From NCBI GenBank assembly GCA_026398275.1, contig JAPLTF010000032.1:124001-188000 (forward strand): 64,000 nucleotides of DNA. The letters are read 5' to 3'. Shown piece after piece: positions 25,762 to 44,290 of this stretch. The translations under genes and the position numbers were made by a program. This DNA is from Verrucomicrobiota bacterium. Its GTDB lineage: Bacteria > Verrucomicrobiota > Verrucomicrobiia > Chthoniobacterales > Terrimicrobiaceae. Position 1 is the first letter of the stretch. Every line of letters begins with the position of its first letter. The notes under the pieces were generated by a model. That model searched no databases. It saw only the letters and a list, made by a program, of their open reading frames with translations, and was not told the origin of the DNA.

Positions 25762-25896
25762 GATGAAACCACAATGAGGAAATCAACCTGATGGCAAAAG
25801 GCGGCCGGACATTTTTCTTCGGATTCCATCCCGGGAAATCCGGAGATGGAAAACCCACCGGACACGCCACCATTAAAATCCGACCCCGGAACGCAT

Positions 25897-26892: not shown

Positions 26893-27257
26893 ACGCCAAC
26901 CGCAGAAAGCAAGTCAATCCCGTCCACCTGTCCTCGCTCATCCGATGCATGCTGGTCGCCCTCTTCGTCGGCGTCAGCGCGCTGTTCTTTCTCTTCATCA
27001 AAAACCAGCAGTTCGCGCTGGCGGAGGAGATCCGGCAGATGGAGCGGAAGATCGCCAACGTCCGCTCGCAGAACGAGACCCTGCTGGCCCATGTCACGGA
27101 GCTCTCCTCCCGCCGGATGCTGCAGCAGCGGATCGCGGAGGGCTTTATCTCCATGAAGCTCATCCAGGATAACGCGATCGCCCGCCTGACGCCTCCCGCG
27201 CAGGCCACGGCCGATGGCGTCCTCCGCACGGCCTTCAACGAAGGCGTCCGCCAATGA
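26889..27257 (+). CDS. ftsL: FtsL-like division protein
   Basis: 122 residues from the ATG at 26889, overlapping the rsmH stop by 4 bp. It has a short basic cytoplasmic tail, one membrane span (CMLVALFVGVSALFFLFIK) and a periplasmic coiled coil (QFALAEEIRQMERKIANVRS onward) of about 45 residues. Sequence conservation in FtsL is low; identity rests on size, topology and place between rsmH and ftsI. FtsL pairs with FtsB and FtsQ to activate FtsWI. The stop overlaps ftsI (ATGA). Confidence 0.85.
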   Translation: MNANRRKQVNPVHLSSLIRCMLVALFVGVSALFFLFIKNQQFALAEEIRQMERKIANVRSQNETLLAHVTELSSRRMLQQRIAEGFISMKLIQDNAIARLTPPAQATADGVLRTAFNEGVRQ

Positions 27258-29014
27258 GGTGGACGGCACGCACACGCACCGGCTTTGCCTGTGCTGCCGT
27301 CGCGATGGTTTTTACTGCCTACTCGGCACGGCTGGTCGAGCTTCAGGTGGCGAAGCACAAGGAATATTCGCAGATGGCGGCCGAAAAGCATACGATGCGG
27401 CAGGTGATCCACGCCCGTCGCGGGCTGATCTTTGACCGGAACGGGGAGCTGCTGGCCTCGAACCTTCCGGTGCGCACGGTCGTCGCGGATGGATCCCATG
27501 TCAAAGATCCCGCCGCCCTGGCCAGGGTCGCGGCCCCGTTTCTCGGCATGGACGAGAAGGAGCTTTGCGCCAAGCTCACCAGCGGGCGGAAGTATATTGT
27601 CATCCGCCACGAACTCGCCGAGGAGACCGCCCTCGCTCTGGGGAAGGCGATCCAGGATGCCAACCTGCGCGGGCTGTATTTTGAGCCGGACGCCGTCCGC
27701 ACCTACCCGAACGGCCAGATGCTCGGGCATGTCCTCGGATTTTTAAACAATGAGGGCGCCGGAATCCAGGGCGTGGAGATGTCGATGGAGAAATCCCTTC
27801 GCGGGCAGGATGGATACCGCTACATCGAGCACGACCGGACCGGGCGCGAGATCATGCTCTACCGGGGGCAGGAGGAGCCGGCGGTCCATGGCCTGAACGT
27901 GCGGCTGACGATCGATATGGGGTTGCAGGCGATTCTGGAGGATGAGCTGGATTCGGCATTCAAGGACCTCAGGCCGGAGATGGCGGTGGGCATCATCATG
28001 GATCCCAACACGGGCGAGATTCTCGCCATGACCAACCGCCCCTGCTTCGATCCGAACCATCCGGGCGACGCCAAATCGGAGCAGATGAAAAACCGCGCGA
28101 TCATCGACATGGTCGAGCCCGGGTCCACATTCAAAATCGTCGTGGCTTCCGGCGCGCTGAATGAAGGCAAGGTCAACGAAAAGACATCGATCTACTGCGA
28201 GAACGGGGCCTTCGCTTACGGCGGCAGGATCCTCCGCGACCACCACGGTTACGGCTCGATGGGCGTCCACGACATCCTTGTGAAATCCTCAAACATCGGC
28301 TCTGCGAAAATGGCGCTGATGATGGGGGACACCAAATTCTACGAGTATGTGAAGCGGTTCGGATTCGGCGACCGCACCGGTATCGAGCTGCCCGGCGAGA
28401 TCCCCGGCCTCGTGCATCCCCCGCATCGCTGGGACAAGCTGACCATCACCCGCATGCCGATGGGGCAGTCGGTCGCCGTGACTCCGCTGCAAATGACCAT
28501 GGGCATGTCGGTCATCGCAAACGGAGGCCGGCTGCTTGCTCCGCAAATCATCCGCTCCGTGGAGGATTCCGACGGGAGCGTCGTGGTCAGCAAGCCGCCG
28601 AAAGTTGTCCGGGAAGTCGTTCCCCAAAAGACCGCCCGCTTTGTCAGCGAGGCGCTGACCGGCGTGGTGGGCGAGGGGGGCACGGCGCAACTGGCGAAAA
28701 TCGCCGGGTTCACGGTCGCCGGCAAAACCGGCACCGCGCAAAAAGTCAGCCCCTCCGGCGGCTATGCCCAGGGAAAATATGTCGTCTCGTTCGTTGGCTA
28801 CCTTCCGCAGGAAGACCCGCGGTTCGTCTGCCTGGTCATGCTCGACGATGCGAAGGTCGCCTCGAATTTGAACTACGGCGGGCTCGTGGCCGCCCCGATT
28901 TTTTCGCGGATCGGCGAGCGGGCCGCCCGCTACCTCGACCTCGTTCCCTCGCTCCGCGCGGAGCCGACCGGACCGCTCGCCCTGCGCGAGCAAAAGCAGG
29001 AAAGGACGAACTGA
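27254..29014 (+). CDS. ftsI: Peptidoglycan transpeptidase FtsI (class B PBP, PBP3)
   Basis: 586 residues. One N-terminal span (GFACAAVAMVFTAYSARLVE) precedes the PBP dimerisation domain (VIHARRGLIFDRNGELLASN). The transpeptidase has S291-T-F-K (VEPGSTFKIVVAS), the SxN motif (VKSSNIGSAKM) and the KTG motif (VAGKTGTAQKVSP). It cross-links septal peptidoglycan together with FtsW, encoded downstream. No C-terminal PASTA domain is present. It overlaps ftsL by 4 bp and ends 3 bp before murE. Confidence 0.96.
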   Translation: MRWTARTRTGFACAAVAMVFTAYSARLVELQVAKHKEYSQMAAEKHTMRQVIHARRGLIFDRNGELLASNLPVRTVVADGSHVKDPAALARVAAPFLGMDEKELCAKLTSGRKYIVIRHELAEETALALGKAIQDANLRGLYFEPDAVRTYPNGQMLGHVLGFLNNEGAGIQGVEMSMEKSLRGQDGYRYIEHDRTGREIMLYRGQEEPAVHGLNVRLTIDMGLQAILEDELDSAFKDLRPEMAVGIIMDPNTGEILAMTNRPCFDPNHPGDAKSEQMKNRAIIDMVEPGSTFKIVVASGALNEGKVNEKTSIYCENGAFAYGGRILRDHHGYGSMGVHDILVKSSNIGSAKMALMMGDTKFYEYVKRFGFGDRTGIELPGEIPGLVHPPHRWDKLTITRMPMGQSVAVTPLQMTMGMSVIANGGRLLAPQIIRSVEDSDGSVVVSKPPKVVREVVPQKTARFVSEALTGVVGEGGTAQLAKIAGFTVAGKTGTAQKVSPSGGYAQGKYVVSFVGYLPQEDPRFVCLVMLDDAKVASNLNYGGLVAAPIFSRIGERAARYLDLVPSLRAEPTGPLALREQKQERTN

Positions 29015-29017
29015 CCC

Positions 29018-30487
29018 GTGAGGCTCACCACGCTCCTTCAATCCGCCGGAATGCCGGATATTCTTGCCGATCCGGAGATCACCTCGCTCGCCTACGACTC
29101 CCGCCTCGCGGGTGAGGGCAGCCTGTTTTTTGCGCTGCCCGGGACAAGGACAAACGGCGCGGAGTTCGCCCGGCAGGCCGCGGAAAAAGGCGCGGCCGCC
29201 GTGGTGGCGGAATCGCCCGTTGTGGACTGCGGCTGCCCGGTCGTGCAGGTCCCGGATGCGCGGGCCGCGATGGCCGACATCGCAGCCGCATTTTACGGCC
29301 ACCCGGACCGGTCGCTGAAATGTGCGGGCGTGACGGGAACAAACGGAAAGACGACCTCCGCATTTCTGATGAAGCACGTGCTGGATTCGGCCTCGCTCCG
29401 CAGCGGGCTCATCGGCACGGTGAAATATGTTGTGGGATCCGAGGAGATTTCCGCGCCGAGGACGACGCCCGAATCGGCGGACCTTCAGGAGATGATGGCC
29501 CGCATGCGCGATTGCGGATCCAAAGCGGTCGCCATGGAGGTGTCCAGCCATGCCCTCGTGCAGAAGCGCGTGAGGGGCATCGAGTTTGATGCGGCGGTCT
29601 TCACCAACCTCACGCAGGACCATCTCGATTACCACCGCACGATGGAGGCGTATTTCGACGCGAAGACGCTCCTCTTCGAGAGCCTCGCCGCCCAGACGCA
29701 CAAGAAGGGCCGCGCGATCATCAACGCCGACGACCGGCACGGGCACCTGCTCATGGAGAGGCTCGGAAAAAACGTGAAGGCCGTCACGTTCGGCCGCGGC
29801 GTGGGGGCGGACTTCCGCGCGAGCGCCATCCAGTTCGACGGGACGGGATCCGTCTTCCATCTCGATGCCCGGAAAAAAAGTTTTCTGGTGAGGACGCCAC
29901 TGATCGGGCTCTTCAATATTTACAATGTCCTCGCGGCCCTCGCGGCTGCGGCGGCGTGCGGCGTGGAGCTGCGTGGAGCGATCGCGGCGCTCGCATCGGC
30001 TCCCCAGGTGCCCGGCCGCCTCGAGCGCGTTCCGGCCAAGCGGAATTTCCATGTGTTCGTGGACTACGCCCACACGGACGACGCCCTCAGAAATGTTCTC
30101 CGCACGCTGCAGGAACTGAAGCCGTCCCGGCTGATCACGGTTTTCGGATGCGGGGGCGACCGCGACCGCGCCAAGCGCCCGCTCATGGCTGCGGCCGCCG
30201 AGGAATTTTCCGACTGGTCGATCCTCACCTCGGACAACCCGCGCCGCGAGGACCCCGAGGACATCCTCGCGGATGTCCGGGCCGGAATGCGCGGGACGAA
30301 TTTTGAAAAGATCACCGACCGCGAGAATGCGATCCGCCGCGCGGTCGAACTGGCGGCCCCGGGAGACATCGTGCTCATCGCGGGGAAGGGCCACGAGAAC
30401 TACCAGGAATTCGCGGACCGCCGGATCACATTCGACGATGTCGACGTCGCCGGGAAGGCGATGGCCCACAAGAAGGCGGAGGCCTGA
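29018..30487 (+). CDS. murE: UDP-MurNAc-tripeptide synthetase MurE
   Basis: 489 residues from a GTG start. ATP loop GVTGTNGKTTS (about residues 105-114), then TTPESADLQEMMARM, FTNLTQDHLDYHRTMEAYF (Mur ligase metal site), VDYAHTDDALRNVL and the substrate region TSDNPRREDPEDILADV. The DNPRxE motif marks enzymes adding meso-diaminopimelate rather than lysine, so a DAP-type peptidoglycan is expected. Order and length are standard. Confidence 0.96.
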   Translation: MRLTTLLQSAGMPDILADPEITSLAYDSRLAGEGSLFFALPGTRTNGAEFARQAAEKGAAAVVAESPVVDCGCPVVQVPDARAAMADIAAAFYGHPDRSLKCAGVTGTNGKTTSAFLMKHVLDSASLRSGLIGTVKYVVGSEEISAPRTTPESADLQEMMARMRDCGSKAVAMEVSSHALVQKRVRGIEFDAAVFTNLTQDHLDYHRTMEAYFDAKTLLFESLAAQTHKKGRAIINADDRHGHLLMERLGKNVKAVTFGRGVGADFRASAIQFDGTGSVFHLDARKKSFLVRTPLIGLFNIYNVLAALAAAAACGVELRGAIAALASAPQVPGRLERVPAKRNFHVFVDYAHTDDALRNVLRTLQELKPSRLITVFGCGGDRDRAKRPLMAAAAEEFSDWSILTSDNPRREDPEDILADVRAGMRGTNFEKITDRENAIRRAVELAAPGDIVLIAGKGHENYQEFADRRITFDDVDVAGKAMAHKKAEA

Positions 30488-30491
30488 CACC

Positions 30492-31859
30492 ATGGACCCG
30501 CTGCCACTCAAAGAAATCGCGGAGATGTCCGGGGCAAAGCTCCTCCGCGGGGACGCTCGGACAATGGTTGCGCGGATCTCCAAGGACTCGCGGACGATCC
30601 AGGCCGGCGACCTCTACGTCGCGCTGCGCGGAGACAACTTCGATGGCAACCTGTTCCCGGCGGACGCGGCGGCCCGCGGGGCGGCAGCCGCGCTGGTCGA
30701 CAATGAGTCGGCGGCGTCCGGGCTTCCGGCGGATTTTCCGGTATTGCTCGCCGGGTCGGGGCTGGATGCGCTGACCCGCCTTGCGGCGGCCTGGCGGTCC
30801 CGCCTGAAATTGAAGGTGCTCTGCATCACCGGCAGCAACGGAAAAACCAGCACGAAAGAATTTGCGACCGGCGTCCTCGGCGCTCGCTTCCAGGTCGTCA
30901 AGACCGAGGGAAATTTGAACAACCACATCGGCGTGCCGCTCTCGATTCTCTCCGCCAGCACGTCGGACACCGCCGCTGTTTGGGAGATCGGGATGAACCA
31001 CCCCGGCGAGATTGCCCCGCTGGCCGCCCTGGCAAAACCGGATGCCGCCATCATCACAAACATCGGGATCGCACACATCGAATACATGAAGACCCGCGAG
31101 GCCATCTCCCTCGAAAAAGGCGCGCTCGCCGAGGCCGTCCCGCCGGAAGGATTTGTGGTCCTTTCCGCCGAAGATGACCAGTCGGACGCCATCGCGTCGC
31201 GCACGAAGGCCCGGGTCGTCCGCGCGGGACTTTCCAGCGGGACCATCACCGCGAGTTCCCTGGTCGAGACCATCGAGGGATGCTCGTTTGTCGTCCATGC
31301 CGGCGGACAGTCCTTCGACACCTCGATCCCCTGCAATGGCTCCCACATGGTCCGCAACGCCCTGCTCGCCGTCGCCGCCGGGATCGAATTCGGAATCTCC
31401 CCCGGGGATGCGGTCTCGGGCCTCCCTCAAACACGCCTTGCCGGGGGAAGGCTCCAGCACCGCATCATTCGGGGGATCTCCTTCCTCGACGACACCTACA
31501 ATGCCAACCCCGATTCCATGGTGGCCGCCCTGACCACGTTGCGCGCGCTCCCGGGCAGCGGGCGCCGGATCGCCGTCCTCGGACGCATGGGCGAGCTGGG
31601 AGATTACGAATTGGAAGGATACCGGCGCACGGGGGCCGCCGCCGGGAAAACTGTCGACATCCTCATCACAGTTGGAGCGGAAACCGCTTCCCTCGCGGAT
31701 GCGGCGCGCGAGACCGGGCTCGGGAGGATCCACGAGGTGGATGACACCGCGTCGGCCTCGCTCATGCTCGATAACCTGGCCCGGCCCGGCGATGTCGTCC
31801 TCGTCAAAGGAAGCCGGTCCGCCCGCATGGAAACCGTCCTGAAAAATTTCGAACAATAA
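30492..31859 (+). CDS. murF: UDP-MurNAc-pentapeptide synthetase MurF
   Basis: 455 residues from the ATG at 30492 (the open frame upstream overlaps murE). It has DSRTIQAGDLYVALRGDNFD, the ATP loop ITGSNGKTSTKEFATGVLG, NLNNHIGVPLSIL, WEIGMNHPGEIAPLA and DDTYNANPDSMVAAL, all characteristic of MurF. It adds D-Ala-D-Ala, which the downstream Ddl supplies. The stop overlaps mraY (TAATG). Confidence 0.96.
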   Translation: MDPLPLKEIAEMSGAKLLRGDARTMVARISKDSRTIQAGDLYVALRGDNFDGNLFPADAAARGAAAALVDNESAASGLPADFPVLLAGSGLDALTRLAAAWRSRLKLKVLCITGSNGKTSTKEFATGVLGARFQVVKTEGNLNNHIGVPLSILSASTSDTAAVWEIGMNHPGEIAPLAALAKPDAAIITNIGIAHIEYMKTREAISLEKGALAEAVPPEGFVVLSAEDDQSDAIASRTKARVVRAGLSSGTITASSLVETIEGCSFVVHAGGQSFDTSIPCNGSHMVRNALLAVAAGIEFGISPGDAVSGLPQTRLAGGRLQHRIIRGISFLDDTYNANPDSMVAALTTLRALPGSGRRIAVLGRMGELGDYELEGYRRTGAAAGKTVDILITVGAETASLADAARETGLGRIHEVDDTASASLMLDNLARPGDVVLVKGSRSARMETVLKNFEQ

Positions 31860-32989
31860 TGCTCTACTACCTTTCAGACCTCAGCGCGTGGGCCCAGGCG
31901 CAGGGGATCGATAACGACTTTTTCAAGGCGTTCAACGTCTTTTCCTACATCACATTCCGCGCGATCTGCGCGGGGATCACGGCCTTTTTGATCAGCCTCA
32001 TCTTCGGAAACTGGGTGATCCGGAAGCTGATCTCCCTGAAGCTCGGCCAGCCGATCCGCAGCAAGGAGGAGGTCCATAAACTGTTCGAGCTGCACGGCGC
32101 AAAAATGGGAACTCCCACCATGGGGGGGATCCTGCTCGTCGGCTCGATCGTCCTCTCCACGCTCCTCTGGGCCAAGCCGGAAAACCCGTTTGTCTGGCTC
32201 GTTCTCTTCAGCACGCTTTTCCTCGGTGCCATCGGATTTTACGACGACTGGCTGAAGGTGACGAAGAAGAGCTCGAAGGGGATCAGCAGCCGGCTCAAGT
32301 TCATTCTCCAGTGCCTGCTCGCGGCGGTGTTCACGATTTACTTTTTGAGCAACCCGAAGCTGGCCGGAATCGCCCAGCAGCTCAACATTCCGTTCTCCAA
32401 GGAGCCGCTGATTTTCAGCCTGGGCTGGGGGACGTTCATCTTTTATCTGCTCGTGATTGTCGGCACGTCGAACGCGGTGAACCTCACCGACGGTCTCGAC
32501 GGACTGGCCACCGGCTGCACGGCCACCGTGGCAGCCACGTATGCGGTGCTGGTTTACCTCGCCGGCAACATCAAGGCCGCCACGTATCTGCAGGTTCCGT
32601 TTGTGGTCTACTCCGGCGAGCTGACGATTCTGTGCACGGCGCTGCTCGGTGCGTGCCTCGGGTTCCTTTGGTGGAACGCGCATCCTGCACGGGTCTTCAT
32701 GGGCGACACCGGCTCGCTGGCCATCGGCGGGATGCTCGGTGCCGTGGCGATCTGCTGCAAACAGGAACTGCTTCTCGTCATCGTCGGCGGCGTCTTTGTC
32801 ATCGAGGCGATGTCGGTCATCCTGCAGGTCGCGAGCTTCAAGCTGACTGGAAAGCGGATCATCAAGATGTCGCCCCTGCACCACCATTTCGAGTTGAGCG
32901 GATGGAAGGAAAACACCGTGATCGTGAGGTTCTGGATCATGTCCGTCCTCTTCGCCCTGCTCGGCCTCGCCACGCTCAAACTCCGTTGA
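31859..32989 (+). CDS. mraY: Phospho-MurNAc-pentapeptide translocase MraY
   Basis: 376 residues and about ten membrane spans. Catalytic and substrate motifs: KMGTPTMGGILL, FYDDWLKVTKKSSKGISSRLKF, NLTDGLDGLATG (catalytic Asp), FLWWNAHPARVFMGDTGSLAIGG and MSPLHHHFELSGWKE. It forms lipid I at the inner face of the membrane. The one-base overlap with murF implies coupled translation. Confidence 0.97.
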   Translation: MLYYLSDLSAWAQAQGIDNDFFKAFNVFSYITFRAICAGITAFLISLIFGNWVIRKLISLKLGQPIRSKEEVHKLFELHGAKMGTPTMGGILLVGSIVLSTLLWAKPENPFVWLVLFSTLFLGAIGFYDDWLKVTKKSSKGISSRLKFILQCLLAAVFTIYFLSNPKLAGIAQQLNIPFSKEPLIFSLGWGTFIFYLLVIVGTSNAVNLTDGLDGLATGCTATVAATYAVLVYLAGNIKAATYLQVPFVVYSGELTILCTALLGACLGFLWWNAHPARVFMGDTGSLAIGGMLGAVAICCKQELLLVIVGGVFVIEAMSVILQVASFKLTGKRIIKMSPLHHHFELSGWKENTVIVRFWIMSVLFALLGLATLKLR

Positions 32990-32990
32990 A

Positions 32991-34316
32991 ATGATCTACA
33001 GTGGAAAAAATGCGGTTGTTCTCGGACTCGGCCACAGCGGCGAGGCGGCCGCACTGCTTTTGTGCGAGGAGGGCGCTGGCGTGACGGTCTGCGAAAGCGG
33101 CGACAGCCCGGCGCTCCGCGAAAAGGCGGCCGGACTGGAAGCCCGCGGGATCCGTGTGCTTCTCGGCCCGGCGGCCGACAGCGATCCCACGGTTTACGAC
33201 GTTGCGGTCCTCAGTCCGGGCATCGATCCGGCGGTCCCGCTCGTTCAGAATGTGCTGGGAAAAAACATCCCCGTGATCGGGGAGCTCGAGCTGGCTTTTG
33301 AGGAATGCTCGTGCCCGGCTGTGGCGATCACCGGGACAAACGGGAAGACGACGACGACCGAGCTGACGACGGAGATGCTGAAAGCCTGCGGGGTGCGCAC
33401 GATGGCAAGCGGAAATATCGGCCTGCCATTCGCCACCGCCACCCGGCTGAGCCACGAACTGGACGTGATGGTTCTCGAGGTGAGCTCGTTCCAGCTCGAA
33501 ACGATCCGGTCATTCCGCCCGCAGGTCGCGGTGTGGCTGAACCTCAGCCCGAACCACCTCGACCGGTATCCGGGCATGAACGAATATCGCGATGCGAAGC
33601 TCAGGATCTTTGAAAACCAGGCCGCGTCGGATATCGCGATCGTCAACGCCGCCTCCGAACTCCCGCCGCTTGCCGCCCGCAGGATCACGTTCAGCGCGCA
33701 CACGCGCGATGCGGACTTCACCCTCGATGGCAGCTGGATCTGCTTCGGAGGACAAAAAATCCTCGACCAGAATGCCACCCGGCTCCGGGGGATCCACAAC
33801 GCGGAAAACCTGATGGCCGCGCTCGCGATCGGCCACGCGCTCGATGTCGAATTCGACCTCATGGCCGGAGCGGTCACCGGCTACACCGCGCCCGCCCACC
33901 GCTGCGAGTTTGTGCGCGAGCTGGACGGTGCCCGCTGGATCAACGACTCGAAGGCCACGAACCTGGATGCCATGGAGATGGCGATCCGCTCGCAGAACTC
34001 ACCGGTCATCCTGGTTGCCGGCGGCAAGGACAAGGGCTTCGAGTTCGATGCGATCGCGCCCCTTGTGCGCGAGAGGGTTCGGGCTGCGGTTCTCATCGGC
34101 GAGATGAAGGACCGCATCGCAAACTCCTGGCGGGACGTCCCGTGCCACAAGGCCTCAAACCTCGAGGAGGCGGTCGCCCTGGCGCACGGTCTCGCGCGCT
34201 CCGGCGACACGGTGCTCTTTTCTCCCGGCACCTCCTCGTTCGACATGTTCCGCAACTACGGGGAACGCGGCAACCTTTTCAAAACCCACGCAAACGAACT
34301 CCAGCCAAAACTGTAA
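32991..34316 (+). CDS. murD: UDP-MurNAc-L-Ala:D-Glu ligase MurD
   Basis: 441 residues. Motifs: VVLGLGHSGEAAALLL (UDP-binding), LSPGIDPAVP, the ATP loop AITGTNGKTTTTEL, EVSSFQLETI, WLNLSPNHLDRYPGMNEY, WINDSKATNLDAMEMA and FSPGTSSFDMFRNYGERG. It adds D-glutamate to UDP-MurNAc-L-Ala in the cytoplasm. It starts one base after the mraY stop. Confidence 0.96.
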   Translation: MIYSGKNAVVLGLGHSGEAAALLLCEEGAGVTVCESGDSPALREKAAGLEARGIRVLLGPAADSDPTVYDVAVLSPGIDPAVPLVQNVLGKNIPVIGELELAFEECSCPAVAITGTNGKTTTTELTTEMLKACGVRTMASGNIGLPFATATRLSHELDVMVLEVSSFQLETIRSFRPQVAVWLNLSPNHLDRYPGMNEYRDAKLRIFENQAASDIAIVNAASELPPLAARRITFSAHTRDADFTLDGSWICFGGQKILDQNATRLRGIHNAENLMAALAIGHALDVEFDLMAGAVTGYTAPAHRCEFVRELDGARWINDSKATNLDAMEMAIRSQNSPVILVAGGKDKGFEFDAIAPLVRERVRAAVLIGEMKDRIANSWRDVPCHKASNLEEAVALAHGLARSGDTVLFSPGTSSFDMFRNYGERGNLFKTHANELQPKL

Positions 34317-34323
34317 AACCCAC

Positions 34324-35241
34324 ATGAAAATGAAACCCATACCACGCCCGCCCACACCCCGCCGGGTCCCGCGCAGAATGGTGAAAACCCTGCACGCGAG
34401 AGCCGCGGCCAGCGAAAAAGATTTCGAGGAATATGAGGGCGAGTCCGAGCCGAACATGAAATTTTCGCACGCCCTGATCGTCGTCCTCGTTCTGCACATC
34501 CTCGCCGTCGGGGGTGTCTTCGCGTTCAATGCCCTGAAGGGCCGGCATGGCGCACCGGAGCACGCAAAACCGGCCGCTGCCGAGCAGCCGGCGACCGCCA
34601 CTCCGGATGTCGTCACCGCCTCCGCGGCCAAGACCGCCGCCCAGGCACATGAGTCCCCGGCCGCTCTGTCTGCTCCGGCCAAGGCGCCGGCAAAAAGCCA
34701 GCCGGAATCAGCCTCAGCCACATATACCGTCGTGGCGGGCGACACGCTGACGCGCATCGCCACGGGACACAAAACCACCGTTGAAGCCATCGAGCAGGCC
34801 AACGGGATCGGCAGCAACTCCGCCCTCAGAATCGGCCAGGTTCTCAAGATCCCCGCCAGGCCCGGCACGGCACCCGCCAGGCAGGAAACGCCCGCCGCGA
34901 AAACCGCGGAGGCCAAGGCGGCGCCGGTTGCAAAATCCCCCGAGGTCAAAGCCGCTCCCGCTCCCAAAACCTCCGAGGCGAAAACAGCCCCCGCAGTCAA
35001 GAGCCCGGATGCCAAACCGACGCCGGTTGTGAAGACGGTGGAGGCGTCGGCTCCCCCGAAGCCTGCTGTCAGTGAGGCTCCGAAGCCGTCGGCCGCCGAC
35101 AAGAGCTATACGGTTGCCAAGGGAGACAACCCCTACTCGATCGCAAAAAAACTCAAGGTCAGCTACAGCGAGCTGATCAAAGCCAACAACATCCAGGACC
35201 CGACAAAACTGCAAATCGGCCAGAAATTGATCGTCCCGTAA
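34324..35241 (+). CDS. Membrane-anchored protein with two LysM domains inside the dcw cluster
   Basis: 305 residues: a basic cytoplasmic tail of about 45 residues, one membrane span (HALIVVLVLHILAVGGVFAF), a Pro/Ala/Lys-rich linker, LysM 1 (YTVVAGDTLTRIATGHKTTV onward, about 135-180), a second Pro/Ala/Lys-rich linker, and LysM 2 at the C-terminus (YTVAKGDNPYSIAKKLKVSY onward). LysM binds peptidoglycan GlcNAc, so it likely ties the membrane to the wall at the division site. No catalytic domain is present. It starts 7 bp after murD and ends 57 bp before ftsW. Its role in division is inferred from position. Confidence 0.88.
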   Translation: MKMKPIPRPPTPRRVPRRMVKTLHARAAASEKDFEEYEGESEPNMKFSHALIVVLVLHILAVGGVFAFNALKGRHGAPEHAKPAAAEQPATATPDVVTASAAKTAAQAHESPAALSAPAKAPAKSQPESASATYTVVAGDTLTRIATGHKTTVEAIEQANGIGSNSALRIGQVLKIPARPGTAPARQETPAAKTAEAKAAPVAKSPEVKAAPAPKTSEAKTAPAVKSPDAKPTPVVKTVEASAPPKPAVSEAPKPSAADKSYTVAKGDNPYSIAKKLKVSYSELIKANNIQDPTKLQIGQKLIVP

Positions 35242-35298
35242 GCGTTTGTCCGGAATTCCACTCCGGTGGAGTTCCTGAGCTTCCGGAAATAACTCTCC

Positions 35299-36438
35299 AT
35301 GCAAAAACACGGCATCCTCTTTCTCCTGCTGACAGTCGCGGGCCTTGTGGTCCTCGGCATCGTGATGCTTTTCAGCACGAGCGCGTTCGCGCAGGACAGC
35401 CATGGGGACATCTACTTTTTCGTCAAGCGCCAGCTGATGTGGCTGTGCGTCGGGCTCGCGGTCGCGTTTTTCGCAGCCCGCATGGACTATCATTTCTGGG
35501 AGCGGAGCTGGTGGGTCTGGTTCGGCGGGGCCTTCCTCCTCCTTCTTCTCTGCTTCGTCCCTCACATCGGGCTCCGGCTCAATGGTTCGTCCCGCTGGAT
35601 CAACGTCGGCGTGGGGGTCCTCCAGCCGAGCGAGTTCGCCAAGATCGGCGGCCTCTTTTTCCTCGCCTGGTGGTTTTCAAAATTCGAGGAGCAATCCAGG
35701 GGATTCCTGATGGGCTTCGCCGCGCCGATGGCGATTCTCGGTCTTCTCCTGCTTCCGATTCTTCTGGAGGTGGACATGGGGAACACGGCGCTCATCGGAG
35801 CGACCGGCGTGGCGATGATGTTTGTCGCCGGCGCAGCGATGCGCTGGCTCCTCCTGATGGGACTGGCAGGTGTCGGGGGCATCCTCTTTCTGGGCATGAA
35901 TATCTCCGAGCGCCAGGGGCGGCTGCTGGCGTTTCTGCACCCGGACAAATACCCCGACGAATTTTATCAGCAGCTCCAGGGGCTCATCGCCTTCGGCTCC
36001 GGCGGGGTCGATGGCCTCGGCCTCGGGGAAGGCCGCCAGAAAATGCTCTACCTTCCCTACGCCCACACCGACTTTATTTTTCCAATGATCGGCGAGGAGC
36101 TCGGCCTGCGGATCACTTTGCTGACGGTGACCGCCTACCTCCTGATCTGCCTGTGCGGATCGCTCGTCGCGACGAATGCGCGGGACCGCTTTGGCTTGCT
36201 CCTGGGGTTCGGGGCGGTGATGATGATCTCCCTGCAGGCTGCAGTGAATATCGGGGTCACGACATCCCTTCTTCCCAACAAGGGCATGCCGCTCCCGTTC
36301 ATCAGCTACGGAGGTTCAAATCTCATGGTGTGCCTTTTCATGATCGGGTTGCTCGTCAACGTCCACCGCCAGGGCCGGCCGCTGGTTGCCCGCCTGGCTC
36401 CCGCGCTCCTCCGCGCCCGGATCCAACCACGACTATGA
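35299..36438 (+). CDS. ftsW: Septal peptidoglycan polymerase FtsW (SEDS family)
   Basis: 379 residues with about ten spans. SEDS motifs include LNGSSRWINVGVGVLQPSEF, LLEVDMGNTALIGATGVAMM, PDEFYQQLQGLIAFGSGGVDGLGLGEGRQK-type loop residues (about 214-243), HTDFIFPMIGEELGLR and GMPLPFISYGGSNLMV. It polymerises lipid II with FtsI. The usual extended N-terminus is short. The stop overlaps the first murG ATG. Confidence 0.96.
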   Translation: MQKHGILFLLLTVAGLVVLGIVMLFSTSAFAQDSHGDIYFFVKRQLMWLCVGLAVAFFAARMDYHFWERSWWVWFGGAFLLLLLCFVPHIGLRLNGSSRWINVGVGVLQPSEFAKIGGLFFLAWWFSKFEEQSRGFLMGFAAPMAILGLLLLPILLEVDMGNTALIGATGVAMMFVAGAAMRWLLLMGLAGVGGILFLGMNISERQGRLLAFLHPDKYPDEFYQQLQGLIAFGSGGVDGLGLGEGRQKMLYLPYAHTDFIFPMIGEELGLRITLLTVTAYLLICLCGSLVATNARDRFGLLLGFGAVMMISLQAAVNIGVTTSLLPNKGMPLPFISYGGSNLMVCLFMIGLLVNVHRQGRPLVARLAPALLRARIQPRL

Positions 36439-37553
36439 TGAAGGTTGCGCCATTCCGGGCTGTGATTGCCTGCGGCGGAACCGGCGGCCACCTGTTCCCG
36501 GGCCTGGCTGTCGCCGAGGCGCTGCATGGCCGCGGCCACGAGGTTTTGCTTTTTGTATCGGAAAAAGAAATCGACACCACCGCCCTCAAGGCGAGGCCCG
36601 AGTTCCGCTCGGAGAAGCTGCCCTCGATCGGCATGCCGAGCATGATCGTCTCGCCGGCGTTCGTGAGGTTTGTCCGCCGGTTTTGGGAAAGCTTTTCCCA
36701 CTGCGGGAAAATCTACCGCAAATTCCGCCCATCCGTCGTCCTCGGAATGGGCGGCTTCACCTCCACGGCCCCGGTGCTGGCGGCCCGGATGCGCGGCCTG
36801 CCCGCGTTCATCCATGAGTCGAATGCGATTCCGGGAAGGGCGAACCGCCTGGCCGCGAAGTTTGCAACGAAGGTATTTCTCGGATTCGAAGAAGCCGAGG
36901 CGCGTTTTCCGGGTGCGCAGTGCGTCGTCACGGGGACGCCGGTCAGGAAAAACCTCGGCCAGCCGATGGACCGCGCGACAGCCCGGAAGGCGTTTCATCT
37001 GGATCCCGACAAAAAGACCGTCCTCGTCATGGGGGGCAGCCAGGGTGCCGCGGGCATCAACCAGCTCCTCTTCAAATCCGCGTCTTTGCTGAGCGGGTCT
37101 GGAGTCCAGATCATCCACCTGACCGGCGACCGCGACGACCGGCTCGCCGCCGCAAACTACCAGCGCGACGAGATTCCGCACTACGTATCGCCGTTCCATC
37201 ACAGCATGGAGGAGGCGTATTCGGCGGCGGACATCGTGGTCTCCCGGGCCGGGGCCTCCAGCCTGAGCGAGATCTCGCAGTTCGCCCTGCCGTCAATCCT
37301 TATCCCGTATCCGTTTGCGACAGACGACCACCAGACCGCAAACGCGCAGATTTACGTCCACGCGGGTGCGGCTGAGGCGCTGACCGAAAAGGAAACCGGC
37401 GCGGAGAAGCTGGCGGCAATGATTTCCAACCTGCTTGAAGACGACCAGCGTCGCGGGCGGATGTCGCTTGCCGCGAAAAGAATTCCGCCGGCCTCGGCCG
37501 CGGAGAATGTGGCCGACGAGATGGAGCGCGCGGTGAAGGAGGCCTCGACATGA
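36435..37553 (+). CDS. murG: MurG, lipid II-forming GlcNAc transferase
   Basis: 372 residues from the first of two consecutive ATG codons (36435, 36438). Motifs: ACGGTGGHLFPGLAVAEAL (lipid I loop), VLGMGGFTSTAPVLAA, HESNAIPGRANRLAAKFA, VMGGSQGAAGINQLL, VVSRAGASSLSEIS and IPYPFATDDHQTANA (UDP-GlcNAc site). It converts lipid I to lipid II at the inner membrane face. The stop overlaps murC by 4 bp. Confidence 0.96.
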   Translation: MMKVAPFRAVIACGGTGGHLFPGLAVAEALHGRGHEVLLFVSEKEIDTTALKARPEFRSEKLPSIGMPSMIVSPAFVRFVRRFWESFSHCGKIYRKFRPSVVLGMGGFTSTAPVLAARMRGLPAFIHESNAIPGRANRLAAKFATKVFLGFEEAEARFPGAQCVVTGTPVRKNLGQPMDRATARKAFHLDPDKKTVLVMGGSQGAAGINQLLFKSASLLSGSGVQIIHLTGDRDDRLAAANYQRDEIPHYVSPFHHSMEEAYSAADIVVSRAGASSLSEISQFALPSILIPYPFATDDHQTANAQIYVHAGAAEALTEKETGAEKLAAMISNLLEDDQRRGRMSLAAKRIPPASAAENVADEMERAVKEAST

Positions 37554-39838
37554 CGCTTCCGGAACTCCAGTCGGCTCTCACCGGCCCGGCCTCGAAGCGC
37601 GTGAACCTGATCGGGGTGGCCGGATCCGGGATGAGCGGCATTGCCGCACTCCTGCTCGCGCTCGGCCATCAGGTCAGCGGATCGGACAAGGTGGTGACCG
37701 TCGAGGTCGAGCGCCTGCAGAAAAAGGGGCTGAAGTTTGCATCCCCGCAGACCGCCGAGAGCGTCCAGGATGCGGAGATCGTCATCTATTCGTCGGCCAT
37801 CAAGGCGGGGAATCCGGCCTTCGACGAGGCGAAGCGGCTGGGCATTCCGATGGTCCGTCGCGCCGATGCCCTCGCGGCGATCATGGCGGCCAAGAAGGGC
37901 ATCGTGGTTTGCGGCATGCACGGGAAGACGACGACTTCCGCCATGGCGGCCCATGTGCTCCGCTCCGGAGGCCTCAAGCCCTCGCATTATGTCGGCGCGG
38001 AAATCCCGATCCTCGGGACCAACGCCCGCTGGGACTCGGAGGGCGAATATTTTGTCGCGGAGGGAGACGAGAGCGACGGGACCCTGATCAACTACCATCC
38101 GGCCCATGCAATCGTGCTCAACATCGAGCCCGAGCACCTCGACTTTTACAAGGACCTCGCCGCCATCGACGCCGTCTACTCGAAGCTCATCGGGCAGACG
38201 TCCGGCCACATCTTTTTCTGCGGCGATGATGCCGGTGCGCGGCGCGTCTGCTCCGCGCATCCGCGCGCGGTTTCGTATGGCCACGCGCCGGAGTGCAATT
38301 ACCGGATCCTCAACCTGACGACTGAAAATTTCCGCTCGCGGTTTTCCGTGGCGAAGGACGGGGCGCCCCTCGGGGAGATCGCGCTCAACATCCCGGGCGC
38401 GCACAACGCGGTGAACGCCCTCGCGGTCATCGCGCTCTCCACCGAGCTCGGAATTTCTTTCGACCGGATCGCCGCCGCGCTGGAAACCTTCCGCGGTGCC
38501 AGGCGGCGTTTTGAGATTCGATACGAATCCACGACGCACCTTCTGGTGGACGATTACGGGCACCATCCCACCGAGATCGCCGCCACGCTCGCGACCGCGC
38601 GCACCGGCGGATGGAAGCGCGTGCTCGCGATGTTCCAGCCGCACCGCTACACGCGAACCCTCGCGCTGAAGGACGAGTTTGGAAAGGCGTTTGGCGACGC
38701 GGACCACGTCTTCGTTGCGGATGTTTACGCCGCCAGCGAAAAACCCATTCCCGGAGTTTCGGGCGCCACGATTGTCGAGGCGCTCAAGGCCTGCGGGCAT
38801 CCCTCCGCGCAGCATGTTCCGGAGGTGGCCAGCATCCACCGATCGGCGGCGGTCATTATTGAGGACGGCGACCTGGTCATCAGCCTCGGTGCCGGCAACA
38901 TCCACGAAGCCGGCGCCCGGCTGGCCGGGGATCTCGCCACGCGCGAAAAGCTTCTCGGCGTGATGGGGCCGGGCACGATCAAACTCCACGAGCCGCTCTC
39001 CAAGCATACCACCATGCGCGTCGGGGGACCGGCCCAGTTCTGGGTCGAACCGGAGACCGGGGAAGGCTTCGCGGATCTCGTGCAGTATTGCTTCGATGAG
39101 GCGATCCCGTTCATGGTGATGGGGCGCGGATCGAATCTCCTCGTGCGCGATGGCGGGATTCCGGGCGTCGTGGCCCACCTGTCGCGCGGCGAGTTCCTGC
39201 GCCACGAGGTGAACGGCGCGGAGATCACCGCGGGCGTCGGCGTGAAATTCAAGCAGCTCAGCGGTCTCGCGCGCGGTGCGGGGATCGGCGGGTTCGAGTG
39301 GATGGAGGGAATTCCCGGGAACCTCGGCGGCGGGCTCCGCATGAATGCCGGCGCGATGGGTTTCCAGACCTTCGACCAGGTGGTGCGGCTCAGGTTCTGC
39401 GACCAGGATGGAAACATCTTCACCCGCACTCCCGCCGAGATGGAAATTCACTACCGGAGCGTCCCCATGCTGCGGCAGAACTACGCGCTGTCGGCCGTGC
39501 TGAAAGGCCACCCGGCCAGCAGGGACGAGATCGACCGCCTGATCGAAATGTCGGCCGCCAAGAGGCGGGAATCCCAGCCGGTCGCCGCAAGCGCGGGTTG
39601 CATCTTCAAAAATCCCGGCCCGGTTCCGGCAGGTCGGCTGATCGACGAGCTCGGATTCAAAAACTTTGCGGTCGGGCATGCGCGGGTTTCCGAGGTTCAC
39701 GGCAATTTCATCGTGAACGACGGCGGGGCGACCGCCGGCGAGGTGCTGACATTGATCGGGGAGATCCAGGCGGCGGCCGAGCGGGTGCGGGGGATCACTT
39801 TGGAAACAGAAGTTCAAATTGTGGGGGTTGATGCATGA
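37550..39838 (+). CDS. murC-murB: MurC-MurB fusion: UDP-MurNAc-L-Ala ligase and UDP-enolpyruvyl-GlcNAc reductase
   Basis: 762 residues with no break between halves. MurC (about 1-460): GVAGSGMSGIAALLLALGHQ, ATP loop GMHGKTTTSAMAAHVL, NIEPEHLDFYKDL, DDYGHHPTEIAATL and FQPHRYTRT. MurB (about 470-762): TTMRVGGPAQFWVEP, MGRGSNLLVRDGG (FAD pyrophosphate loop), EGIPGNLGGGLRMNAGAMG, YRSVPM and SAGCIFKNPG. The catalytic Ser of well-studied MurB enzymes is replaced by C684, a change also met in other bacterial MurBs as far as I recall. One chain thus carries two non-adjacent steps (MurB acts before MurC). It overlaps both neighbours by 4 bp. Confidence 0.95.
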   Translation: MTLPELQSALTGPASKRVNLIGVAGSGMSGIAALLLALGHQVSGSDKVVTVEVERLQKKGLKFASPQTAESVQDAEIVIYSSAIKAGNPAFDEAKRLGIPMVRRADALAAIMAAKKGIVVCGMHGKTTTSAMAAHVLRSGGLKPSHYVGAEIPILGTNARWDSEGEYFVAEGDESDGTLINYHPAHAIVLNIEPEHLDFYKDLAAIDAVYSKLIGQTSGHIFFCGDDAGARRVCSAHPRAVSYGHAPECNYRILNLTTENFRSRFSVAKDGAPLGEIALNIPGAHNAVNALAVIALSTELGISFDRIAAALETFRGARRRFEIRYESTTHLLVDDYGHHPTEIAATLATARTGGWKRVLAMFQPHRYTRTLALKDEFGKAFGDADHVFVADVYAASEKPIPGVSGATIVEALKACGHPSAQHVPEVASIHRSAAVIIEDGDLVISLGAGNIHEAGARLAGDLATREKLLGVMGPGTIKLHEPLSKHTTMRVGGPAQFWVEPETGEGFADLVQYCFDEAIPFMVMGRGSNLLVRDGGIPGVVAHLSRGEFLRHEVNGAEITAGVGVKFKQLSGLARGAGIGGFEWMEGIPGNLGGGLRMNAGAMGFQTFDQVVRLRFCDQDGNIFTRTPAEMEIHYRSVPMLRQNYALSAVLKGHPASRDEIDRLIEMSAAKRRESQPVAASAGCIFKNPGPVPAGRLIDELGFKNFAVGHARVSEVHGNFIVNDGGATAGEVLTLIGEIQAAAERVRGITLETEVQIVGVDA

Positions 39839-40755
39839 AGCGACATTACGAGGGAATTCTCAAAGACTTGTCCGTCGCACTGCTCATGGGCGGGCCGGGA
39901 AAAGAGCGCGAGGTTTCACTGCGCTCGGGGGCCGCCGTGGCCGGGGCGCTCCGCAAGTGCGGGGCCCGGGTCCACGGGACGGATGTCGCCGGGCCGGGGT
40001 TCGACCTGCCGCCGGACACGCAGCTCGTCTTCAACATGATCCACGGCACGTTTGGGGAGGACGGCGAACTGCAGTCCCTCCTGGATGCGGCAGGAGTTCC
40101 CTATACCGGGGAAGGGGCCGCGGGCAGCCGGCTGGCATTTGATAAGATTGAGACGAAGGAATGTTTCGACCGGGCGGGAGTGCCAACCTGCGCATGGCGG
40201 GCCGTCCGTCGGGGGGAGGGCCCGGAGTGGAAATTCCCCTGCGTCATCAAGGCCCCTCGCCAGGGATCGAGCGTCGGCGTTCACATCGTCCGATCGCCGG
40301 AAGCGATTCCCGCCGCCTTGGACGATTGCTTCCTCTATGGCGACCGGGTTCTCGTCGAGGAATTTTTCACCGGCCGCGAGCTGACGATCGGGATCCTTGG
40401 GAAGGAGGCCCTGCCGATCGTGGAAATTGTCCCGCACGAGGGCTTCTACGACTACGAGCACAAGTATACGAAAGGCGCTTCCGATTACCATGTGCCCGCC
40501 CAACTCGCGCCCCAGGTGGCAGCGAACATCCAGGCCGCCGCGCTGGCCGCATGCCGTTCGCTCGCGCTCGAGGTCTATTCGCGGGTGGACATCCTTCTCG
40601 CGCCGGACGGCCGCCTGAATGTGCTCGAGATCAACACGATTCCCGGGATGACAGAAACCAGCCTTCTTCCGAAGGCCGCGGCGGTCGCGGGGCTCGATTT
40701 CCCTTCCCTCTGCGAGGAAATCGCAGGCCTTTCACTCGCCAGAAAAATCCCATGA
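39835..40755 (+). CDS. ddl: D-alanine-D-alanine ligase
   Basis: 306 residues with an ATP-grasp fold: VALLMGGPGKEREVSLRSG, FNMIHGTFGEDGELQSLLD, PYTGEGAAGSRLAFDKIETK, IKAPRQGSSVGVHIV, VLVEEFFTGRELTIGIL and the metal/ATP site LNVLEINTIPGMTETSLLPK. It makes the D-Ala-D-Ala used by MurF. Standard Ddl length. It overlaps murCB and ftsQ by 4 bp each. Confidence 0.95.
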   Translation: MKRHYEGILKDLSVALLMGGPGKEREVSLRSGAAVAGALRKCGARVHGTDVAGPGFDLPPDTQLVFNMIHGTFGEDGELQSLLDAAGVPYTGEGAAGSRLAFDKIETKECFDRAGVPTCAWRAVRRGEGPEWKFPCVIKAPRQGSSVGVHIVRSPEAIPAALDDCFLYGDRVLVEEFFTGRELTIGILGKEALPIVEIVPHEGFYDYEHKYTKGASDYHVPAQLAPQVAANIQAAALAACRSLALEVYSRVDILLAPDGRLNVLEINTIPGMTETSLLPKAAAVAGLDFPSLCEEIAGLSLARKIP

Positions 40756-41711
40756 TCCGGCACTCGTCACCCTCACCACATGGCAACCGCAGGCTCCGCC
40801 CGGCGGGGCGCGGCCAGCATCTGCTCAATGTGAAGGTTCGCGCCGTGACCGCCCGGCGCCAGCGGAGGCAGAAGGTCAGCTCGCTTTTCTGGATGTCTGC
40901 CCTCCTTGTGATCATCTGCGTCACCGCCTGGCTGGGGATCGCCACCGCGCTGGACAAATTCTTTTTCTCCAACTCCGAATACACGCTCAAGCACGTCACC
41001 CTGGAGCTGGACGGCGTGATGACCCGCGAGGAGGCGCTCGAGGAGACAGGGATCCGCGAGGGGGAGAACATTTTCCGCGTCGATCTCTCGAATGCCGAGC
41101 GGGCGCTGCGGGCGGTTCCGCAGGTCGGCGACGTCTGCATCGAGCGGCATCTCCCGGACCAGATCTCGATCACCGTCACCGCGCGCGATCCCGTGGCCTG
41201 GGTGGCCCCGCTGGAGAAGGATGCCGATCCGTTTGACCCGGAGAAATCCCTCCTTGTGGACGAGACCGGATATCTGATGAAGCCCCGGATCATCCAGCCG
41301 GAGTTCTATCACCTCCCCGTGATTTATGGTGTGCAGAGCGACAACATCCGGGACGGGGAGCCGCTCCACAACGAGGATCTTCATCGCGCGCTCGCCCTCC
41401 TCGACGAGGTGGCCCGCCACCCCGAGTGCCTGCTGAACATCCGCACCATGAACATCTCCAAGGGCTATTGCGTGGATGTGGTGAGCGACCGGAATGCCCG
41501 CGTCACCTTTTCCACCGAAGAATATTCCGAGCAGCTCGCACGCCTGCGCCAACTGCTCGAACACTGCCGGGATTCCGGGCGCGAGCTGGACTCGGTCAAC
41601 CTCATGGTGAAACGGAACACGCCGGTCACGTTCGTGATGGCTCCGCCTGCCACGGAGAGGGTCGCAGGCGCAAATCAACGCACCGCATCAAGCGGAGGAA
41701 GGAAAAACTGA
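40752..41711 (+). CDS. ftsQ: Division protein FtsQ (POTRA domain)
   Basis: 319 residues from the ATG at 40752 (upstream frame overlaps ddl). A basic tail of about 45 residues precedes one span (LFWMSALLVIICVTAWLGIA), then a POTRA region (LKHVTLELDGVMTREEALEE, IREGENIFRVDLSNAERALR, VCIERHLPDQISITVTARDP) and a beta domain. Conservation is low, as usual for FtsQ; synteny supports the call. The stop shares a base with the ftsA start (TGATG). Confidence 0.9.
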   Translation: MIRHSSPSPHGNRRLRPAGRGQHLLNVKVRAVTARRQRRQKVSSLFWMSALLVIICVTAWLGIATALDKFFFSNSEYTLKHVTLELDGVMTREEALEETGIREGENIFRVDLSNAERALRAVPQVGDVCIERHLPDQISITVTARDPVAWVAPLEKDADPFDPEKSLLVDETGYLMKPRIIQPEFYHLPVIYGVQSDNIRDGEPLHNEDLHRALALLDEVARHPECLLNIRTMNISKGYCVDVVSDRNARVTFSTEEYSEQLARLRQLLEHCRDSGRELDSVNLMVKRNTPVTFVMAPPATERVAGANQRTASSGGRKN

Positions 41712-42928
41712 TGGCTCGGGATGATATTCATGTCGGTTTGGAAATCGGCACCACCAAGGTCTGCGCCGTCGTGGCGGAGTGCCGCGAGGACGGGGAGATC
41801 CGGCTTCTCGGCGTCGGGGAAACGCCGTCGCGCGGCGTGCGCAAGGGCGAGATCGTCGATTTTGAAAATGCCTCGAACTGCGTCCGCGAGGCGCTTTCGG
41901 ACGCGGAGGAAAAAAGCGACGTCGAGATCAAGAGCGTCTGGCTCGCGGTCACCGGAAGCCACATCCACAGCTTCAACAACCGCGGCTCGGCGGCGATCCC
42001 CGAGGAGAGCGGCGAGATCACCGAGGAGGAGATCCAGGAGGTCGAATACAAGGCGAAGGAGATCAGCCTGCCGAAGGAAAATGCCATCCTCCACTCGATC
42101 ATCCAGCACTACTACGTGGACGGGCAGGAGGGCGTCCTCAATCCGGTCGGCATGCTGGGAAGCCGCCTGGAGGCGGATTTCCACATCATCCACGGTGTGA
42201 CGAACCGGATCCAGAATTCGATCCGCTGCGTGAAGGAATGCCATATCGAGGTCGAGGACGTGGTGGTGAGTTCCCTCGCTTCCGCGCAGGTCGTGCTCGG
42301 GCAGCATCAGAAAGAATCCGGGGCCCTGGTCATCGACATCGGCGGCGGAGTCACCGACTACATCGTGTATCTCGACGGGGCGGTCCGCCAGAGCGGGGTT
42401 CTGGCCGTCGGCGGCGATCACATCACCAACGACATCTCGATCGGACTCCGGATCCCGATCACCCGCGCGGAGAAACTCAAAATCGAGGAGGGATCGGCGG
42501 ACCTCGGAAAATCCCTCCCGGGCGAAAAAATTGTTTTGAAAAATGACACCGGCTTTTCGGGCAAGGAGGTCGAGCGGGAGATGCTGAACATGATCATCCA
42601 CGCGCGGCTCGAGGAGCTCTTCGGGCTGCTGCGCAAGCGGTTTGCCGGCGAGGTTCCGGAGCGGCTCCTCGGCTCGGGCGTCATGCTCACCGGAGGCTGC
42701 AGCATGATCCGCGGCATCCGCGGGATCGCGGAGTCGGTCTTCGACATGCCCGTCCACCTCACGCGCGCCCAGGCGGTCTCGGGCCCGACGTCCGCATTTG
42801 AGAATCCGCAGTTTTCCACGTGCATCGGCCTCGCGAAATATGCGCAGGCGGTCCGCTCCGAGATGCCGGAACCGTCGTTTCTTGGCAATATTTTCGGGAA
42901 AGTGTTTAAAAAATTCCGTTCGTCCTAG
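41711..42928 (+). CDS. ftsA: Division protein FtsA (actin-like)
   Basis: 405 residues. HVGLEIGTTKVCAVVAECR (phosphate-1), EIVDFENASNCVREALSDAE, LAVTGSHIHSFNNRGSAAI (SHS2 region 1C), ALVIDIGGGVTDYIVYLDG (phosphate-2), LAVGGDHITNDISIGLRIP, GSGVMLTGGCSMIRGI (adenosine). The C-terminus FLGNIFGKVFKKFRSS is an amphipathic membrane-targeting helix. It anchors FtsZ filaments to the membrane. Sequence quality is normal, unlike its partner FtsZ. Confidence 0.96.
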   Translation: MARDDIHVGLEIGTTKVCAVVAECREDGEIRLLGVGETPSRGVRKGEIVDFENASNCVREALSDAEEKSDVEIKSVWLAVTGSHIHSFNNRGSAAIPEESGEITEEEIQEVEYKAKEISLPKENAILHSIIQHYYVDGQEGVLNPVGMLGSRLEADFHIIHGVTNRIQNSIRCVKECHIEVEDVVVSSLASAQVVLGQHQKESGALVIDIGGGVTDYIVYLDGAVRQSGVLAVGGDHITNDISIGLRIPITRAEKLKIEEGSADLGKSLPGEKIVLKNDTGFSGKEVEREMLNMIIHARLEELFGLLRKRFAGEVPERLLGSGVMLTGGCSMIRGIRGIAESVFDMPVHLTRAQAVSGPTSAFENPQFSTCIGLAKYAQAVRSEMPEPSFLGNIFGKVFKKFRSS

Positions 42929-42934
42929 AGTCCT

Positions 42935-44290
42935 ATGATCTCGTTTCCAAAATATCTCGACCGTTCGCAAACTCCGGTGGTGCGGCTTGTGGGGCTCGGA
43001 AATGCGGGGGTCAACCTCGCGGACCGGATCACCATGGCCGGAGTGCCCGGGCTGGAAACCGTGGCGATCAACTCGGATCAGCAGTCGCTTTCCTCATCGG
43101 TCTCACCGGTGAAGGTTTCGCTCGGGCCGCTGACCACCAGGGGGCTGGGGGCCGGCGGAGACCCGGAGATCGGATTGGATGCGGCGAAGGAGTCGCTCTC
43201 GGAGATCGAGGAGGCGCTTGCGGGTTCGGATATCCTATTTCTTTGTGCCGGCCTTGGCGGGGGAACCGCCTCGGGCGCGGGAGGAATGGTTGCCGAGGCG
43301 GCGAAGCAGACCGGAGCCCTCCTGATCGCGATCGTCACGACGCCGTTCGGATTCGAGGGGCGCCGCCGGACCTCGCAGGCGGCAGCAGCAGTCCAGGAGA
43401 TCGGCGCGCATGCCGACGCCGTAATCCATTTTGAAAACGACCGGATGGCGGAGCTGGCCGCGCCGAAATCCGGAGTGGCCGAGACATTTGCCGCCTGCGA
43501 CGAGTTGCTCTGCGGATGCATTTCTGCGGTCGCCCACCTGATTTCCGCCCGCGGTCCGCTGGGCGTCGGCCTTCCGGACCTTCTCTCTGTGCTGAATGCC
43601 GGGAACGGCGGATGTCTTTTCGGAACCGGAGCCTCCGCCGGCGACAACCGCGCCCATGAGGCCCTGGAGCGCGCGCTGAAGAGCCCGCTTCTGGACCGGG
43701 GACGTCTCCTCGATGAGGCTGCGAGCGTCCTTGTCCATCTCTCCGGCCCGCCTTCGCTTTCGTTCGCCGAGGTGGGGGCCATCATGCAGGAGATCGCCCG
43801 CCAGGCCTCGGAGGGGTCGATGCTCCATCTCGGGGTCAGCACATCGCAGGACAAGAATGCGCCGGTCGTCGTGACGATCCTCGCGAAGGCCGGAGCGGCC
43901 GCCCCCGCTGCCGCGCCAGCCGTCCGTCCCCGCCCGTCTCCAGCGGTGGAACGCCCGCCCAAACCCCGGCCGGTGCCCGTTGAGCCGGAACCCGAACGGT
44001 CGGTCTCACCCGATCCCTCCCCGTCGCACGAAGCAGCGGAAGCTCCGGAACCGGAGCCCCTGCCGGAACCCGCGCCCGTCCGACAGGTCCCACCGCCGCG
44101 CCCCGCCGCACAGCAGCCGCCGCCAAAGCCGCATCCCGCGACGAAACCGGCTTCGCCGAAAATCAAACAGGAAACCCTCCAGTTCGAACCGGTCGCCCGG
44201 GGAAGATTCGAGAAAATCGAACCGACGATCGTCGAGGGCGAGGATCTCGATGTGCCGACATTCCTGCGCTTGAATGTGAAAAAACCCTGA
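42935..44290 (+). CDS. ftsZ: Divergent cell division GTPase FtsZ
   Basis: 451 residues. The tubulin fold is clear: VRLVGLGNAGVNLADRI (18-32 region), INSDQQSL, LGAGGDPEIGLDAA, the signature GGGTASG (108-114), TTPFGFEGRRR and FENDRMAEL. Differences from typical FtsZ: the usual GGGTGTG has Ala at 112; the first glycine loop reads GNAGVN instead of GGGG(S/C)N; and the T7 catalytic loop, normally N-x-D-F-x-D, reads G210-V-G212-L-P-D215. The Asn and first Asp are lost and the last Asp kept. A Pro/Glu-rich linker (about 315-410) leads to a good C-terminal FtsA-binding peptide (LDVPTFLRLNVKKP). Position after ftsA confirms identity. Confidence 0.93.
   Translation: MISFPKYLDRSQTPVVRLVGLGNAGVNLADRITMAGVPGLETVAINSDQQSLSSSVSPVKVSLGPLTTRGLGAGGDPEIGLDAAKESLSEIEEALAGSDILFLCAGLGGGTASGAGGMVAEAAKQTGALLIAIVTTPFGFEGRRRTSQAAAAVQEIGAHADAVIHFENDRMAELAAPKSGVAETFAACDELLCGCISAVAHLISARGPLGVGLPDLLSVLNAGNGGCLFGTGASAGDNRAHEALERALKSPLLDRGRLLDEAASVLVHLSGPPSLSFAEVGAIMQEIARQASEGSMLHLGVSTSQDKNAPVVVTILAKAGAAAPAAAPAVRPRPSPAVERPPKPRPVPVEPEPERSVSPDPSPSHEAAEAPEPEPLPEPAPVRQVPPPRPAAQQPPPKPHPATKPASPKIKQETLQFEPVARGRFEKIEPTIVEGEDLDVPTFLRLNVKKP

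Follow-up and report, generated by a model that had tools for sequence, protein, structure and literature searches.

FtsZ treadmilling is thought to require GTP hydrolysis by a conserved T7 motif, N-x-D-x-x-D, which reads N207-V-D209-F-A-D212 in E. coli FtsZ, the numbering used as reference here. In the general alignment of FtsZ and tubulin T7 loops, D212 occupies the position of E254 in alpha-tubulin. Ruiz et al. (2022, PMC8936486) describe the filament of S. aureus FtsZ: K+ is coordinated by N208, the catalytic water is positioned by a swing of D210, D213 and G72 maintain the surroundings, R143 is arginine-finger-like and Q48 locks K+. The substitutions N208L, D210N and D213N each abolish assembly (PMC8936486), and E. 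coli FtsZ D212A retains 7% activity (PMC8142252). In tubulin, E254 of the alpha subunit is catalytic and K254 of the beta subunit does not support hydrolysis (PMC13394414). FtsZ, unlike tubulin, is a homopolymer and hence presents the same T7 loop at every interface.

The divergence of verrucomicrobial FtsZ, a Ser in its tubulin signature and an essential C-terminal extension of the FtsZ of Verrucomicrobium spinosum are already published (PMC1845146, PMC2474590, PMC9871819, PMC12283558). The V. spinosum protein was presented as canonical, with its divergence and the Ser noted; the T7 loss treated below is absent from the text of that account (PMC1845146). Transposon sequencing shows the gene to be essential, and the cells undergo binary fission that depends on FtsZ (PMC12283558). 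Our literature search was limited and found no GTPase measurement of any verrucomicrobial FtsZ. The texts of the published accounts that it covered do not describe the T7 loss, whose novelty is provisional to that extent.

The stretch of DNA analysed here (the window, 64 kb) carries a complete dcw cluster, in which a single-copy ftsZ follows ftsQ and ftsA:

25846..40755, + strand: remaining dcw genes, in the order rsmH, ftsI-type PBP, murE, murF, mraY, murD, LysM protein, ftsW, murG, murC-murB fusion, ddl
40161..41711, + strand: ORF holding ftsQ, with an FtsQ-type POTRA domain; the true start lies further downstream
41708..42928, + strand: ftsA, 406 aa; TIGR01174 370.7 bits (cut-off 175.85)
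42935..44290, + strand: ftsZ, 451 aa; sole tubulin-family gene found in the genome

The ftsZ ORF matches the Tubulin/FtsZ GTPase domain (PF00091) with 117.9 bits against a cut-off of 33, and FtsZ_C (PF12327) with 50.4 bits against a cut-off of 27. Its score of 231 bits lies under the TIGR00065 equivalog cut-off of 295.2 bits and its T7 loop reads GVGLPD instead of N-x-D-x-x-D, so we class it as a variant and not as a canonical FtsZ. The same cut-off is passed by no match in 176 of 195 sampled Verrucomicrobiota genomes. An FtsZ match occurs in 191 of the 195, nearly all of them single-copy. Loss, divergence or incomplete assembly may lie behind the four genomes that have none, and in five genomes of one family the match is very weak (E about 1e-17 to 1e-21). 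The genome of the window is 98.7% complete; we found neither a second ftsZ nor any match to the FtsZ-like Tubulin_2 (PF13809), ZapA or SepF in it, and the window itself holds no Rfam match. An AlphaFold2 model of the protein (mean pLDDT 78, core mostly above 90, 72 in residues 221-230) has the FtsZ fold, with Z about 35-36 over residues 8-321 against FtsZ structures.

The loops of the putative active site and the C-terminal motif are located as follows:

42992..43015, + strand: T1 glycine loop GLGNAGVN, residues 20-27, where E. coli has GVGGGGGN
43070..43084, + strand: T2 NSDQQ, residues 46-50; retains the Mg-network Asp (D48, D45 in E. coli) and the K+-locking Gln (Q50, Q47 in E. coli) (roles from PMC8936486)
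43139..43165, + strand: T3 RGLGAGGDP, residues 69-77; the Gly that holds the catalytic water is kept
43256..43276, + strand: T4 tubulin signature GGGTASG, residues 108-114
43343..43369, + strand: T5 PFGFEGRRR, residues 137-145; retains E141 (E138 in E. coli) and the arginine-finger-like R145 (R142 in E. coli)
43430..43447, + strand: T6 FENDRM, residues 166-171; E167 is the acid at E. coli position 164
43562..43579, + strand: T7 loop GVGLPD, residues 210-215; N207 and D209 are each replaced by Gly, D212 is kept as D215
44159..44269, + strand: extended C-terminal motif KIKQETLQFEPVARGRFEKIEPTIVEGEDLDVPTFLRL surrounding the FtsA-binding peptide

The initial annotation held that T7 lacks the Asn and the first Asp, and this is borne out. 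GVGLPD aligns with NVDFAD or NLDFAD both in HMMER alignments against solved FtsZs and in a MAFFT alignment with E. coli K-12 FtsZ. In the AlphaFold2 model residues 210-215 sit between helix 181-204 (H7) and helix 213-220 (H8), which is the position of T7, and alignments and model together rule out an N-x-D-x-x-D motif placed elsewhere in the protein. Overlooked at that stage was the retained second Asp, which is equivalent to the catalytic E254 of alpha-tubulin. The loop reads GVGLPD or GIGLPD in all four sampled members of the genus, and the FtsZ core is under purifying selection within it (dN/dS 0.06-0.19, with dS near saturation), which together indicate more than chance.

Nor is the change a property of this one gene, as had been supposed: alignment of FtsZs from Verrucomicrobiota and other bacteria confirms the loss and shows it to be a clade-wide state of two orders. 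All seven outgroup sequences in the alignment keep N-x-D-x-x-D, whereas N207 and both acids are kept in only 17 of the 195 non-redundant Verrucomicrobiota FtsZs. The acid at 209 is absent in 114 of the 195, the acid at 212 in 53, and both in two. T7 thus decays in several ways across the phylum. On a FastTree tree from which the T7 columns and positions 163-165 had been left out, the loss of D209 is a single change in one clade of about 106 rows, which includes records named as Chthoniobacterales, Spartobacteria, Verrucomicrobiaceae, Prosthecobacter, Luteolibacter and Akkermansia; because the tree has many long branches, its deep order is not firm. The window FtsZ falls inside this clade with three congeners. 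This mapping indicates that the T7 loss is ancient and goes back to the ancestor that Chthoniobacterales and Verrucomicrobiales share.

The raw counts strikingly suggest that losing one acid excludes losing the other, but we rejected this idea, as two losses of 212 occurred on the tree on a 209-lost background versus six on a 209-kept background (p = 0.48). One of the two FtsZs that have neither T7 acid comes from a genome labelled Akkermansia.

Among 68 genomes of the family holding Prosthecobacter-like members, a single one matched a sequencing primer that Yee et al. 2007 used for V. spinosum. The second primer lies nearby on the opposite strand, the ORF, counted from its first ATG, has the published length of 673 aa, and the signature is GGGTGSG, which together identify this FtsZ as that of V. 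spinosum. Its T7 loop is RMGIAD, in which N207 and D209 are lost, D212 is kept and no acid stands at 211. Since V. spinosum ftsZ is essential, an FtsZ lacking both N207 and D209 works in cells. This essentiality shows the need for FtsZ, but not that FtsZ hydrolyses GTP. The V. spinosum protein (PMC1845146) shares with the window FtsZ the T7 losses, an acidic T6 (FEN), the signature Ser, the position in the dcw cluster and the extended C-terminal motif; it differs in its length, in a much longer linker and in having Arg instead of Gly at 207.

Compared with the S. aureus filament, the window FtsZ retains the fold and the equivalents of R143, D46, Q48, G72 and D213, but both N208, the K+ ligand, and D210, the swinging catalytic Asp, are Gly. 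The initial annotation had described the altered residues as drivers of GTP hydrolysis. N207 and D209 do belong to the catalytic loop, and since the corresponding S. aureus substitutions N208L and D210N abolish assembly, an altered filament turnover is a reasonable prediction. The T4 change is close to the state in tubulin. GGGTASG is present as had been noted, yet it falls within the range of the phylum: T110 is replaced by Ser in 93 of 127 Verrucomicrobiota sequences and G109 by Ala in 14 of 127. The Ala varies even within the genus, with GGGTGSG in two of three sampled congeners. The T4 change is therefore mild, Ser being the usual state both in the phylum and in tubulin. The same applies to the first glycine loop, correctly reported as altered but likewise within the range of the phylum, where its fourth position is Asn in 32 of 127 sequences.

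Conservation was ranked over 305 core positions in 103 sequences that have lost acid 209 and carry an acid at 164. Of these, 98% have an acid at 212 and 98% have R or K at 142, while G71 is kept in 99%, D45 in 99% and E138 in 98%. By contrast, position 207 ranks 276th, so that N207 drifts freely, and position 47, the K+-locking Gln in S. aureus, ranks 236th and is Arg in about half of the sequences. At 207, 49 of the 103 carry a basic residue (R, K or H). Such a residue, or an Arg at 47, might replace the charge of K+ in the clade that lost D209.

A group of about 25 FtsZs of Opitutales type shows the opposite arrangement. Like the D209-lost proteins they keep one of the two T7 acids, but it is the other one: N207 and D209 are kept (invariant in the 25 by choice of the set) and Thr or Ser stands in place of D212. 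Of these proteins, 80% retain Q47. Conservation in the two sets thus indicates that the D212-related parts are held in the D209-lost group and the K+-related parts in the Opitutales type. The acid kept in the window FtsZ stands at the position of alpha-tubulin E254, whereas the Opitutales resemble beta-tubulin K254 in having no acid there. It is conceivable, though we lean slightly against it, that one phylum houses two minimal FtsZ sites with one T7 acid each, the Chthoniobacterales and Verrucomicrobiales having D212 alone and no K+ site and the Opitutales having N207 and D209 alone, in which case the two-acid K+-assisted mechanism would not be required for division.

For the window itself, we consider it probable that the ORF supplies a Chthoniobacterales (Terrimicrobiaceae-like) bacterium with its working and only division FtsZ, a protein with an inherited, reduced active site and hydrolysis through a single T7 acid. 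Its T7 loop lacks the equivalents of the K+-coordinating Asn and the swinging Asp of S. aureus and is left with one acid, D215. Along with R145, the Gly of T3 and D48 from the adjacent subunit, this residue would most likely support GTP-dependent assembly. Retention of the acid, the Arg and the Mg network suggests continued hydrolysis through the one T7 acid, probably more slowly and with less dependence on K+, possibly with none, and such slow hydrolysis may turn the filaments over for FtsA-anchored division. We infer this catalytic route, its rate and the K+ independence from the pattern of kept and lost residues. A widespread group that includes the gut bacterium Akkermansia, and is related to the FtsZ-less Planctomycetota and Chlamydiota, divides with FtsZs missing part of the T7 motif. 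Genetic tools for V. spinosum, including targeted mutagenesis (PMC12283558), are published. The parts of the active site needed for FtsZ-based division can be tested directly, and so can the question whether a decay of hydrolysis preceded the loss of FtsZ in related phyla.

Against this reading, each of N208L, D210N and D213N abolishes assembly in S. aureus, and a single acid may therefore be too little for hydrolysis; the two sequences with neither T7 acid also speak against it. Hydrolysis could instead be effectively lost, with GTP filaments serving as a scaffold whose turnover relies on nucleotide exchange, on severing or on other proteins, and with the phylum partly en route to dividing without FtsZ as Planctomycetota and Chlamydiota do. 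The need for the N207 and D209 equivalents in S. aureus assembly (PMC8936486), the several modes of T7 decay and the accelerated evolution of ftsZ that has been reported in Methylacidiphilum and Prosthecobacter (PMC2474590) are consistent with such a loss. However, the clade-wide conservation of acid 212, R142, E138 and the Mg network would be unexpected if catalysis were dispensable, and no ZapA, SepF or Tubulin_2 gene that might take over was found in the genome. We regard this explanation as unlikely.

Still less likely is a restoration of catalysis by a compensating acid, be it the Glu or Asp that T6 carries at position 164 or Asp at position 211. An acid at 164 is present in 103 of 114 sequences without acid 209 versus two of 81 with it, its gain maps to the same branch as the loss of D209, and Asp occurs at 211 in 72 of the 103. 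One shared branch is nevertheless one event, hence no test of association, and neither the window FtsZ nor that of V. spinosum has an acid at 211. T6 in FtsZ structures, moreover, borders the ribose and base and not the gamma-phosphate. The low TIGR00065 score might suggest an FtsZ in decay and without function, or else an artefact of sequencing or assembly, but the comparative data refute this in practice, given the intact single-copy ORF with low dN/dS, the recurrence of this T7 type across independent genomes and in named species, the essentiality in V. spinosum (PMC12283558) and the fact that most of the phylum also scores below that cut-off.

Hydrolysis through one T7 acid, as preferred here, would act in filaments anchored by an FtsA that is normal as originally described, its TIGR01174 score lying far above the cut-off. 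The FtsA-binding peptide is also present (EDLDVPTFLR, compared with YLDIPAFLR in E. coli), but calling it normal was incomplete, since it forms the end of a conserved motif far longer than the E. coli peptide. This extended motif, KQExLQFEPVxRGRFEKxEPTIVEGEDLDVPTFLR, is recognisable in most of Verrucomicrobiota. Within the dcw cluster, a LysM-domain protein (34324-35241) lies between murD and ftsW, and murC and murB are fused in a single ORF (37550-39838), as reported for V. spinosum.
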